DNA of 64,000 nt from Leucobacter weissii. Lineage in GTDB: Bacteria; Actinomycetota; Actinomycetes; Actinomycetales; Microbacteriaceae. The stretch lies in NCBI RefSeq assembly GCF_017565745.1, contig NZ_JAGDYM010000005.1, forward strand, positions 1 to 64,000, read 5' to 3'. Positions 14,722-59,132 of the stretch are shown here, piece after piece; the stretch's first letter is position 1; each line of letters starts with the position of its first letter. Both the position numbers and the translations under genes were made by a program. The notes below the pieces were generated by a model. It made no database searches. It saw only the letters and a program-made list of their open reading frames with translations, and was not told where the DNA came from.

Positions 14722-14795
14722 GGGGCCGTCGTCTAATGGCAAGACATCAGCTTCCCAAGCTGAGAACGCGGGTTCGATTCCCGTCGGCCCCTCCA
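14722..14795 (+). tRNA. tRNA-Gly (anticodon CCC), CCA encoded
   Basis: The cloverleaf is read directly: acceptor GGGGCCG/CGGCCCC, anticodon stem TCAGC/GCTGA with loop TTCCCAA giving anticodon CCC, T arm with GGTTCGATTCC, discriminator T and encoded CCA. The last 19 bases are also part of a 40-bp direct repeat whose second copy lies 131 bp downstream. Confidence 0.95.
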
Positions 14796-14816
14796 CTTCG
14801 CTCCGGCACCTCCGGG
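14777..14816. repeat. Direct repeat copy 1 (tRNA-Gly 3' end)
   Basis: A 40-bp sequence covering the last 19 nt of tRNA-Gly and 21 nt downstream; identical to 14908-14947. Confidence 0.9.
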
Positions 14817-14907
14817 AATCCTCATGAACCCCGGCCCGAAGCCGAGACGGCTTCGGCGCAGCGTGCGCGAAGCCCAGAAATGGGCTTCGCTCTGAGCGCG
14901 CTGCGCA
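14817..14907 (+). repeat. Structured palindromic insertion, copy 1 (tRNA-Gly)
   Basis: A 91-bp segment between two identical 40-bp direct repeats. After a 19-nt leader comes hairpin 1, a 9-bp stem CCGAAGCCG/CGGCTTCGG closed by AGA (14836-14856). An outer 7-bp stem CGCAGCG/CGCTGCG (14857-14863, 14899-14905) encloses hairpin 2, a 10-bp stem with a GAAA loop (14867-14890). The outer stem ends 2 nt before the downstream repeat. The same layout recurs at 57513-57614 with different stem bases. It contains no open reading frame of note. It is probably a non-autonomous mobile or structured RNA element. Confidence 0.7.
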
Positions 14908-14947
14908 ATTCCCGTCGGCCCCTCCACTTCGCTCCGGCACCTCCGGG
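14908..14947. repeat. Direct repeat copy 2 (tRNA-Gly 3' end)
   Basis: Identical to 14777-14816, carrying a detached 19-nt 3' end of tRNA-Gly that cannot form a tRNA. Confidence 0.9.
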
Positions 14948-22137: not shown

Positions 22138-22168
22138 GCACTACGCTTGAAGCATGCGCATCGCCACC
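22138..22168. repeat. Direct repeat copy 1 (xthA start region)
   Basis: 31 bp carrying the -10 box, ATG and first five codons of xthA, matching 22261-22291 at 29 of 31 positions. Here the reading frame continues as MRIATRVR and stops, so it is a dead duplicate. Confidence 0.85.
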
Positions 22169-22260
22169 CGCGTCCGCTGAGGGAACAGCGATCTCTCGCT
22201 GCTCCCCGGACGCGCCGCGGACCTCCGGACCGCGGATTCGGCCGTTCCCGGCTCCGACCC
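22169..22260 (-). repeat. Structured palindromic insertion, copy 3 (xthA)
   Basis: A 92-bp segment between two near-identical 31-bp repeats. Read on the minus strand: a 25-nt leader, hairpin 1 (CCGCGG stems around a 9-nt loop, 22215-22235), then an 8-bp outer stem CGCGTCCG/CGGACGCG (22169-22176, 22207-22214) around an 11-bp inner stem with a GAGA loop (22181-22206). The outer stem ends exactly at the repeat border. The topology equals the insertions at 14817 and 57513, although the stem sequences differ. Confidence 0.6.
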
Positions 22261-22291
22261 GCACTACGCTGGAACCATGCGCATCGCCACC
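22261..22291. repeat. Direct repeat copy 2 (functional xthA start)
   Basis: Second copy of the 31-bp repeat; this one is joined to the intact xthA gene. Confidence 0.85.
22265..22270 (+). promoter_or_regulatory. -10 element of xthA (leaderless)
   Basis: TACGCT, 6 nt before the xthA ATG, consistent with a leaderless transcript. The duplicated copy at 22142-22147 keeps TACGCT as well. Confidence 0.5.
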
Positions 22292-56734: not shown

Positions 56735-57511
56735 CTAACCCATGCGGCGGAAGACTTCAAGATGCCCGACGGGCTCGCGCTGGCCGCCGACATGGACGAT
56801 CACCGGCCCCTCGTCCTCGTCCTCGACCGTCAGCTGCGTCCCGTGCGCACGCAGCGCCACGAGCTTGCGGTCGAGCCACGGCGCCGCGTCGTGGAGCTCG
56901 AGCTCCTCCCGCGGGGGAGGATCACCGGCCCGATCGGCGACGATCTCCCAGTACGGGAGCTCGAGCCCGTGCGCCACCGCACGAGCCGCCCGGTGGGCGA
57001 AGACGTGGTCGGGGTGGCCGTAGCCGCCCCGTTCGTCGTAGCTCACGACCGCCTCGGCATCCCATGCGACGGCGGCAGCGATCAGGTCGTTCAGCGCCTC
57101 CGCCGCCGGGGCTCGCGTCAGCGCCCCGACGGAGCCGTCCGAGGCGGCCGCGGCGAAGCCGTCCGGCCCCCACGCCATGCCCGAATCCTCGTACACGCGC
57201 GCGGGGAGTCCGGCGGCCCGTGCGGGCGCGCTCCCGAGGAAGGCGTGGCTGCTCACGCCGAGCGCCGCGAGCGCGGCGGCGAGCTCGCCCTCCCGGTGGG
57301 CCGCGAGACCGGCCGGGCCCGCGGACCCGGCGAACGACCCCGGCACCGCCTCGCCGCGCTCCCCTCGGCTCAGCGTCACCAGCAGCGGCTCACGCCCCGC
57401 CGCGGCGAGCGCCGCCAGCGTGCCGCCGGTCGCTATCGTCTCATCGTCGGGGTGCGCGTGGACGAACAGCACCCTCGACGCACCGTCGAACCATCCGGCG
57501 GGGCCGCTCAT
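56735..57511 (-). CDS. mshB: PIG-L family deacetylase (MshB-like)
   Basis: A 258-residue zinc deacetylase. The metal motif AHPDDE and the second His in GGYGHPDHV are present, as is GALTRAP. The sequence fits MshB (GlcNAc-inositol deacetylase of mycothiol synthesis), though it is shorter than the ~300-residue mycobacterial enzyme, so another LmbE/PIG-L function is possible. The first 23 codons are duplicated upstream by an insertion (57442-57685). The start ATG 57511 uses GGGAGGGG, a site supplied by the inserted segment. Confidence 0.8.
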
Positions 57512-57512
57512 C
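57442..57512. repeat. Direct repeat copy A (functional mshB start)
   Basis: 71 bp with the mshB start codon and first 23 codons; identical to 57615-57685. Confidence 0.95.
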
Positions 57513-57684
57513 CGCGCGCACCCCTCCCGATGAGGCTCTCTGCATTCCCGAGTTCGAGACGAACTCGGCGCGGGCGGGAAATGCCCAGAAATGGGCATTT
57601 CCTGATCGCCCCCGCATCGTCGGGGTGCGCGTGGACGAACAGCACCCTCGACGCACCGTCGAACCATCCGGCGGGGCCGCTCAT
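57508..57684 (-). CDS. Chimeric 58-residue reading frame (duplicated mshB start)
   Basis: Starts at the duplicated mshB ATG, which overlaps the cca stop (ATGA). It encodes the first 23 residues of the deacetylase up to AHPDD, then insertion-derived residues, and stops exactly over the real mshB ATG (again ATGA). It cannot make an active enzyme. It may serve only to keep translation coupled from cca to mshB. Confidence 0.35.
   Translation of the reverse strand: MSGPAGWFDGASRVLFVHAHPDDAGAIRKCPFLGISRPRRVRLELGNAESLIGRGARG
57513..57614 (+). repeat. Structured palindromic insertion, copy 2 (mshB)
   Basis: A 102-bp segment between perfect 71-bp repeats. After a 35-nt leader comes hairpin 1, CCGAGTTCG/CGAACTCGG with an AGA loop (57548-57568). 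An outer stem (57569-57576 with 57607-57614, one mismatch) encloses hairpin 2, an 11-bp stem with a GAAA loop (57577-57602). Its end coincides with the repeat border. Compared with 14817-14907, the loops and stem ends are conserved while inner stem pairs differ on both sides. Confidence 0.7.
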
Positions 57685-57685
57685 C
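57615..57685. repeat. Direct repeat copy B (original mshB start)
   Basis: Identical to 57442-57512. Here the ATG overlaps the cca stop codon, which is probably the ancestral cca-mshB junction. Confidence 0.95.
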
Positions 57686-59132
57686 TCTCCCCGCCTCCGG
57701 CCCGATACCACTCCCGCAGGCGCGCCTCGGCGGCCTCCTCGCCGATCGGCCCCTCGTCGAGGCGCAGTTCGAGCAGGAAGCGGTAGGCCTTGCCGACCGG
57801 CGGCCCGGGCGGCAGGTCCAGGATCGCCATGATCCGCTCGCCGTCGAGCTCCGGCCGCACCGCGGCGAGCTCCTCCGCCTCGGCGAGCTCGGCGATGCGC
57901 CGTTCGATGTCGTCGTAGGCGTGCTCGAGTCGTTCCGCTTTGCGCCGGTTGCGCGTGGTCACGTCGGCGCGCGTGAGGATGTGCAGCCGCCCGAGCTCCT
58001 CCCCGGCGTCGCGCACGTAGCGCCGCACCGCCGAGTCGGTCCACTGCTGATCGCTGTATCCGAAGAATCGCAGGTGCAGCTCGATCAGTCGCGAGACGCG
58101 CTTGATGGTGTCGTTGTCGAAGCGCAGAGCGCGCAACCGCCTGCGCGCCATCTTCGCGCCGACCACGTCGTGATGGTGGAACGTCACCCCGCCGCGCTCG
58201 AAGCGGCGGGTCGGGGGCTTGCCGATGTCGTGGAGAAGCGCGGCGAGCCTCAGGACCACGTCGGGACCCTTCCCGTCCTCTCCGCGTTCGAGCTCCAGCT
58301 CGATGGCCTGGCGCAGCACCGTGAGGCTGTGCTCGTAGACGTCCTTGTGCCGTCCGTGATCGTCCTGCGTGGCGATGAGATCCGTCAGCTCCGGCAGGAA
58401 GAGCTCGGCGAGGCCCTCGTCGACGAGCAGTCGGATACCGGGGACGGGATCCGCGGTGGAGAGGAGTTTGACGAGTTCGTCGCGGATCCGCTCGACCGAG
58501 ACGATCTCGAGGCGATGCGCGAGCTCGCGCATCGCCTCCCGCACCTCGGGTTGCACCTCGAAGCCGAGCTGCGAGGCGAAGCGCGCGGCGCGCAGCATGC
58601 GGAGCGGATCGTCGGTGAACGAGGCCTCGGGCGCGCCGGGCGTGGCGATCCGGCCCGCGAGCAGATCCTCCATCCCGCCGGCGCCGCCGGCGGCGGCCAC
58701 GTCCACCAGCCTCAACTCGGGGAGCATGAGGGCCAGCGCGTTGATCGTGAAGTCCCGCCGCACGAGGTCGTCCTCGATCGAATCGCCGTACGCGACCTGC
58801 GGCTTGCGCGAGTCGTCGCGGTAGGTGTCGGCGCGGTAGGTCGTGATCTCGACGCTCTCGCCGTGCACCTTCGCGGCGATCGTGCCGAAATCGCGCCCGA
58901 CGTCCCAGACCTGCCTGGTCATCCCGGCGAGGATCGCGCGCGTCTCGTCGGGGCGGGCCGAGGTGGTGAAGTCGAGGTCGGTCACGGGCCGTCCGAGCAG
59001 CGCGTCGCGCACCGGACCGCCGACCAGTGCGAACTCGTGACCGGCGTCGCGGAAGGCTGCGGCGAGCTCCCGCACCGGGCTGCTCTCGGCGATGCCGCGC
59101 AGCGCGGACAAGGATTCGGCAAGAGGACGCAT
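57681..59132 (-). CDS. cca: CCA tRNA nucleotidyltransferase
   Basis: A 483-residue class II nucleotidyltransferase that adds or repairs the tRNA CCA end. The head domain shows ALVGGPVRDALLGR and DLDFTT (catalytic Asp pair), then RRDFTINAL and DPLRMLRAARFASQL. A C-terminal HD-type region (LLHDIGKPPTRRF) is typical of actinobacterial members. TACCCT lies 6 nt before the ATG, so a leaderless start is likely. The stop overlaps the duplicated mshB start. It is needed here because tRNA-Thr has no encoded CCA. Confidence 0.93.
   Translation of the reverse strand: MRPLAESLSALRGIAESSPVRELAAAFRDAGHEFALVGGPVRDALLGRPVTDLDFTTSARPDETRAILAGMTRQVWDVGRDFGTIAAKVHGESVEITTYRADTYRDDSRKPQVAYGDSIEDDLVRRDFTINALALMLPELRLVDVAAAGGAGGMEDLLAGRIATPGAPEASFTDDPLRMLRAARFASQLGFEVQPEVREAMRELAHRLEIVSVERIRDELVKLLSTADPVPGIRLLVDEGLAELFLPELTDLIATQDDHGRHKDVYEHSLTVLRQAIELELERGEDGKGPDVVLRLAALLHDIGKPPTRRFERGGVTFHHHDVVGAKMARRRLRALRFDNDTIKRVSRLIELHLRFFGYSDQQWTDSAVRRYVRDAGEELGRLHILTRADVTTRNRRKAERLEHAYDDIERRIAELAEAEELAAVRPELDGERIMAILDLPPGPPVGKAYRFLLELRLDEGPIGEEAAEARLREWYRAGGGER

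Follow-up and report, generated by a model that had tools for sequence, protein, structure and literature searches.

A dispersed two-hairpin element, often flanked by long direct repeats, in Leucobacter weissii and other Microbacteriaceae

Features of the locus

The window considered here is the whole 64-kb stretch of Leucobacter weissii DNA that was analysed. At 57513-57614 it carries an insert between two copies of a duplicated sequence in which a PIG-L family gene and a polyA polymerase-like gene meet, their stop and start codons overlapping as ATGA. Two further inserts, at 14817-14907 next to a tRNA-Gly gene and at 22169-22260 on the minus strand beside an exonuclease III-like gene, share its build, and all three belong to one dispersed family. 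The original prediction had proposed a common pair of hairpins and flanking direct repeats at these three places, and both were found at each of them.

Insert at 57513-57614
57442-57512: first copy of the target duplication, 71/71 identical to 57615-57685; start of the PIG-L family gene (minus strand, reading leftwards; Pfam match)
57513-57547, plus strand: segment that separates hairpin 1 from the exact repeat, either filler or a duplication that has decayed
57548-57568, plus strand: hairpin 1, CCGAGTTCG-AGA-CGAACTCGG (sequence, fold and covariance model match)
57569-57614, plus strand: hairpin 2, with outer stem, inner stem, GAAA loop at 57588-57591 and 3' bulge (sequence, fold and covariance model)
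57615-57685: second copy of the target duplication, 71/71; the polyA polymerase-like gene (57681-59132) has its stop codon here (Pfam)
Insert at the tRNA-Gly site
14777-14816: first copy of the target duplication, 3' end of tRNA-Gly (tRNA 14722-14795), 40/40 identical to 14908-14947
14836-14856, plus strand: hairpin 1 (sequence and covariance model)
14857-14906, plus strand: hairpin 2, GAAA at 14877-14880 (sequence, fold and covariance model)
14908-14947: second copy of the target duplication, exact 40-nt repeat
Insert on the minus strand
22261-22291: first copy of the target duplication (31 nt, 2 mismatches), in which the exonuclease III-like gene starts at 22277 (Exo_endo_phos Pfam match)
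22215-22235, minus strand: hairpin 1, CCGCGGTCC-GGA-GGTCCGCGG (sequence and covariance model; outside the minimum-energy fold)
22169-22214, minus strand: hairpin 2, GAGA at 22192-22195 (sequence, fold and covariance model)
22138-22168: second copy of the target duplication, 31 nt with 2 mismatches

The element consists of hairpin 1, built as CCG-nnnn-CCG-[A/G]GA-CGG-n'n'n'n'-CGG, and of hairpin 2, which adjoins it directly and is formed by an inner loop (mostly CCAGAAATGG) followed by a 3' bulge, together with an outer stem that, in the 57513 copy, was read by eye and is absent from the minimum-energy fold. Its size is about 65-79 nt, and 76 nt in near-identical copies of other genera. The covariance model matches the 57513 copy at 57544-57615 (79.6 bits), the tRNA-Gly copy at 14832-14904 (73.4 bits) and the minus-strand copy at 22168-22239 (68.9 bits), each copy being itself among the model members. 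In RNA folding, the z-scores were -6.0 (14817), -3.4 (57513) and -3.4 (22169), with 0/200, 1/200 and 0/200 shuffles, respectively, folding as well. Hairpin 2 is present in the minimum-energy structures of all three window copies and hairpin 1 in those at 14817 and 57513; in the minus-strand copy (22169-22260), competing pairings occur and the 5' arm of hairpin 1 pairs elsewhere. GNRA loops, which had been put forward as a common trait, are frequent across the family, but they are neither universal nor defining, since some copies carry a triloop in hairpin 2 instead (L222, L240, L250 and L254, by eye).

Distribution of the family

BLASTN with the window inserts retrieved further copies in the same genome and in relatives, several of them flanked by long direct repeats of unrelated sequence. 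A covariance model was then built from 11 copies, which match it by construction. At E 0.01 or better, it gave at least 139 matches in at least 25 of the 54 Leucobacter genomes, at least 21 of the copies lying in the Leucobacter weissii genome itself; at E 1e-4 or better, at least 73 of 398 Microbacteriaceae genomes and at least 25 of 85 genera had matches. All of these counts are lower bounds, as both searches used strict filters and limited candidate scoring.

Many sites recur across species, including the tRNA-Gly 3' end, the rlmH start, the response-regulator end and the guaA end (gene names by eye), which means that they are old insertions or preferred sites. Part of the distribution in Leucobacter may reflect old inheritance, many copies lying at species-shared sites. 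Carriage by plasmids or phages was not indicated by blastn with one window copy per database and a uniform copy against both, and the strict pattern of the uniform copies described below had no match among viral sequences; the sole viral pattern match (L148) lacks such hairpins (by eye). Spread beyond the Microbacteriaceae was also considered and rejected: among 29 matches in named genomes, obtained with a strict pattern that would miss variants, the 10 from other groups are without the hairpins (by eye).

At the tRNA-Gly 3' ends of other Leucobacter species, related two-hairpin inserts without a GNRA loop were seen, with part of the tRNA 3' half duplicated (L151, L156, L170 and L172, by eye). 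A different, longer structured insert follows tRNA-Gly at L157, L164, L166 and L173, where the tRNA 3' end is copied inverted on one side and direct on the other (by eye). Moreover, a second dispersed palindromic repeat, of the GGTTGAGTAG...CTACTCAACC type, lies beside or under several element copies (L286, L287 and L289-L293, in G345), and a sequence similar to it occurs in L351 (G193).

Flanking direct repeats

Within the 64-kb window, exact direct repeats of at least 17 nt at offsets of 60-499 were found at the 14817 and 57513 sites only. In the larger set, a flanking direct repeat scoring at least 14 accompanies 66 of the 115 scored Leucobacter copies, compared with 2 of 230 combinations of swapped left and right flanks, and both of these positives are members of one tandem array (L265). 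The scoring covers 115 of the 116 listed copies, one flank being too short; of the 139 matches, some tandem neighbours and weak ones fall outside the list. Thus, the covariance search and the search for flanking duplications, both proposed beforehand as checks, turned out positive, and many of the copies are insertions that duplicated a long stretch of the target; the other 49 copies have no flanking repeat scoring 14.

The duplication measures 16-71 nt in 52 scored Leucobacter copies. The distance from repeat to repeat, which equals the net gain of DNA, is 109-126 nt in 32 of these 52 (range 92-173), and the distance from hairpin 1 to the right-hand repeat is 65-79 nt in 24 of 30 copies. In the clear cases, L091 apart, the right-hand repeat starts between 14 nt before and 4 nt after the model end (150 nt scanned), and a second look, restricted to the first 12 nt, agrees. 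The duplicate, then, starts close to the 3' end of the element, approximately, this end being fixed only within some bases, while on the 5' side 0-35 nt of non-element sequence intervene. At some sites, repeat and element alternate in arrays (L075, L088, L218 and L257), as expected if the repeats recombine. In L098, L101 and L254, the repeat runs into hairpin 1, and these look like remnants of a second tandem unit (by eye).

The segment adjoining the element on the 5' side was compared with the right flank. In-register identity is 26-27%, and a shift of -1 gives 37%, or 34% without L091, which thus accounts for only part of the signal; gapped alignment of 29 copies, again without L091, shows a weak signal overall (p 0.005). 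For the segment at 57513-57547, the likeness is not significant alone, 8 of 28 other flanks scoring equally. The adjoining segment may therefore be a decayed duplication in some copies and something unexplained in others. A constant length of duplication plus adjoining segment was also considered. In Leucobacter, the variance of this sum is reduced only if sums above 70 are excluded (p 0.002 for the remaining 27 of 30 copies), and not with all 30 copies (p 0.23). In 10 uniform copies of other genera, the same sum gives p 0.01, four of them having repeats that score just 10-11, the control 99th percentile, and two of these four adjoining another repeat family. The 35- and 47-nt values for duplication plus adjoining segment are a lead.

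Uniform copies in other genera

In other genera, the body that follows hairpin 1 is nearly constant, CGCTGGCGTCGCGGCGAAGGCCAGAAATGGCCTTCGCTnnnAGCTCCAGCGCG, and all 50 of its fixed positions are matched by 25 of 43 non-redundant copies, which had been selected for body sequence. Among these 25 copies with identical bodies, 18 hairpin-1 arms and 13 nnn triplets can be distinguished, and in 19 of the copies all ten hairpin-1 arm pairs are Watson-Crick. Copying of the hairpin-1 arms from the target was considered as a source of this variety, and permutation tests against 100-nt flanks were negative. A sober reading is that the fixed bases are contacted by a factor and that the middle of hairpin 1 need only pair.

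Most of the near-identical copies have no clear duplication. A flanking repeat scoring at least 19 occurs in 7 of 47 uniform copies, one of them within another repeat family, and 5 further copies score 10-12, against a control 99th percentile of 10 and a control maximum of 16. The scarcity of strong repeats means either that duplication does not accompany every insertion or that it was later lost.

In the uniform copies, the arms GGCGCTGG/CCAGCGC sit at the ends of the constant body. They would be the short terminal inverted repeats if the element were a MITE-like relic of a DDE transposon. This origin seems improbable, however, as hairpin 1 lies outside the arms and yet travels along, the duplications of 16-71 nt exceed the 1-14 bp that PMC11708052 gives for most IS elements, and no full-length parent was seen in searches short of a genome-wide one.

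Empty sites and gene ends

A probe joining the two flanks of the 57513 site has matches in 52 of 54 Leucobacter genomes. Among 29 loci of relatives, which are the best-scoring matches besides the site's own and thus favour contiguity, the site is empty in 19, with both genes contiguous and at most 8 inserted bases; a looser criterion gives 22. In another genus, a copy with a 38/38 duplication is flanked by genes for a glutamine synthetase and a peptidase C26 (G421, Pfam). There, the unbroken probe is matched in 4 of 9 genomes of that genus (BLAST), three of the four also having been read as sequence; among the others, G193 has another repeat at the site, G292 has the element without duplication and two genomes gave no match. 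At the two sites examined, the element has been inserted where relatives carry nothing.

The relation to gene ends was assessed by a codon-position heuristic in 54 duplicated Leucobacter copies, of which 22 have a sense gene clearly recognisable on their left. In all 22, its stop codon falls within the duplication or no more than 7 nt beyond it, whereas the same test shifted upstream by 60, 100 and 140 nt gives 1/24, 0/23 and 1/26, respectively. Thus, the duplication rescues the gene, and placement at gene ends can be explained by survival of harmless insertions, without targeting. The notion that the intact gene is always left of the element was dropped, since the 57513 duplication serves genes on both sides and cases with the gene on the right exist (L238, by eye). 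At least one copy is seemingly intragenic: L296 (G077) lies in frame in a polymerase-like gene and adds about 27 residues (by eye). L297 is identical to L296, the two occupying the far ends of one G077 contig.

Alternatively, the copies could be old functional structured elements under selection, resembling mRNA 3' ends or terminators, with repeats that arose by local tandem duplication and not by transposition. Sites common to several species (by eye), the location at gene ends and the X-E-X-E-X arrays would all suit such elements. So would an observation made by eye, namely that at some gene ends the 3' arm of the outer stem is formed by the host gene's own last codons, the 5' arm of the element being complementary to them; this applies to L041, L093 and L242 (guaA-like end), to L077, L108 and L111 (fkpA-like end) and to L269/L301 (rpsK- and rpmJ-like ends). 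Nevertheless, relatives show empty sites, identical bodies occur at unrelated sites in several genera, and the signature of an intrinsic terminator, taken as a four-T run within 12 nt after the element, is present in only 1 of 116 Leucobacter copies and 0 of 47 uniform copies, so that this account appears unlikely.

Covariation and the nature of the folded strand

Compensatory base changes, which the original prediction had reported, hold in the larger set, in which 96.8% of 1301 cells are paired and 17 of 19 pairs have changed on both sides. Double-change cells number 299, compared with 82.6 in shuffles (0/500 reach 299) and at most 60 with slid partners. The alignment behind these counts was made by fitting to the model, which disfavours irregular pairs, and it extends to weak matches with E as high as 0.5. 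G-U pairs account for 15 of 1260 standard pairs (about 1%) and, in hairpin 1 of the uniform copies, for 1 of 470 cells, whereas in tRNA stems from 33 tRNA genes of the fetched loci they reach 36/693 (5%). In RNA, G-U is generally taken to be the intermediate step of compensatory change (PMC8794818), and the rarity of G-U therefore speaks for pairing at the DNA level, or template correction, more than for folded RNA. The pattern points to DNA hairpins or to template-switch correction of palindromes, the latter being the mechanism described in the same paper (PMC8794818), and amounts to support, not proof, given the model-fitted alignment. Thus, the proposed selection on a folded RNA or single-stranded DNA is weakened as to RNA, whereas single-stranded DNA fits better. 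If this is right, compensatory changes, though usually taken to prove a functional RNA, can be a property of DNA hairpins too.

Covariation could also be a by-product of replication, if template switching in imperfect palindromes copied one arm onto the other, and pairing would then be uninformative on function. The great excess of double changes over one-sided ones agrees with this possibility. However, the conserved sequence of loops and body does not, and dispersal would be left unexplained. The template-switching mechanism is published (PMC8794818), and a further study (PMC7202029) is also reported to deal with it. As the whole account this seems doubtful, and template switching is compatible with, and could operate alongside, the mobile element favoured below.

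Search for the mover

Co-occurrence with a transposase or a reverse transcriptase, suggested beforehand as a test of mobility, was not found for the families searched. Reverse transcriptase RVT_1 (PF00078) has no match in the Leucobacter weissii genome, and it was detected in 5 of the 26 genomes that bear the element, against 5 of the 14 that lack it; on this showing of no association, a reverse transcriptase was rejected as mover. Of 41 genomes, a single one, which lacks the element, has Y1_Tnp (PF01797), in a family search that a very divergent Y1 member could escape; a transposase of the IS200/RAYT type was likewise set aside. Overall, no mobilising protein or autonomous parent was found with the RT and Y1 families in about 40 genomes.

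These results bear on whether the element is a bacterial SINE-like RNA, the transcript of which would be turned into DNA and integrated by target-primed reverse transcription, a process from which a near-fixed 3' end, a loose 5' end and variable duplications would follow. The 3' end close to the duplicate, the 0-35 nt of non-element sequence on the 5' side, the strong folding and the frequent GNRA loops are in keeping with such an RNA. Against it, RVT_1 has no match in the Leucobacter weissii genome or in 21 of the 26 genomes bearing the element, G-U pairs are rare, and Rfam returned just two tRNAs above cut-off in the window; its single match over 8 loci fell far short of the cut-off. There is little likelihood, in our judgement, of an RNA intermediate of this kind.

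Interpretation

The most probable explanation, to which we give a probability of roughly 60%, is a mobile DNA element that is non-autonomous and whose hairpins are recognised by a putative trans-acting factor. The structured, dispersed and mobile family with long target duplications that was originally proposed is in agreement with its presence in at least 25 of 54 genomes of the genus, its flanking repeats and the empty sites. Structure and insertion are well supported; as to mechanism, we infer a folded single strand, a putative enzyme and staggered nicks. A trans-acting enzyme would recognise the element as a folded single strand, that is, as two adjoining DNA hairpins, and the 3' end of the element would be joined to one target nick; the gap between the staggered nicks would be filled in, and most surviving insertions would be those at which a gene end or start is restored by the duplication.

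More speculatively, and with considerable doubt, this could represent a new kind of single-stranded DNA transposition, in which an enzyme that is neither a reverse transcriptase nor of the Y1 family reads the two-hairpin strand and integrates it between nicks whose spacing is fixed at about 35 or 47 nt, and in which the central part of hairpin 1 could take any sequence that still pairs. The two values come from few young copies and differ by one helical turn. If the mobile-element explanation is true, many members of the bacterial family carry a tiny mobile element with target duplications several times longer than those of ordinary insertion sequences, and the mover is findable, the element being so small and its copies so many.

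Comparison with known systems

MITEs, ERIC and MIRU are small dispersed repeats, some of them at gene junctions. The two-hairpin element differs from them in its much longer duplication and in having terminal inverted repeats of a few bases at most, with hairpin 1 outside them; terminal inverted repeats combined with a short duplication of fixed length, as in MITEs, are not what its 52 duplicated copies display. Target-primed retroelements of the non-LTR type have a near-fixed 3' end, a loose 5' end and a variable duplication. The element resembles them in its 3' end, near-fixed within some bases, and in the variable length of its duplication, but it has no association with a reverse transcriptase.

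REPINs and REP sequences, moved by RAYT (Y1) transposases, are described in the consulted part of PMC3116915 as short, extragenic, palindromic and non-autonomous doublets that also form tandem clusters. The element is likewise a short palindromic doublet, extragenic (L296 seemingly an exception, by eye), non-autonomous and present in tandem clusters; unlike REPINs, it is not accompanied by Y1_Tnp in the 41 genomes searched. A word search of the available text of PMC3116915 did not return the term 'target site duplication'. Similar word searches of two palindrome surveys returned neither 'Microbacter' nor 'Leucobacter' (available text of PMC12306157) and neither 'Leifsonia' nor 'Actinobacter' (available text of PMC2267715).

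Long target duplications and small palindromic repeats are each known, whereas their combination was not met in searches of the open-licence literature, in which no published description of the two-hairpin family was found either. Restriction-modification genes of Helicobacter pylori (Nobusato et al. 2000) were inserted with a long target duplication, as described in the relevant passage of PMC1643837. The duplication is likewise long here, but there it mainly concerns restriction-modification genes, and here a hairpin repeat of less than 80 nt that is present in many copies.
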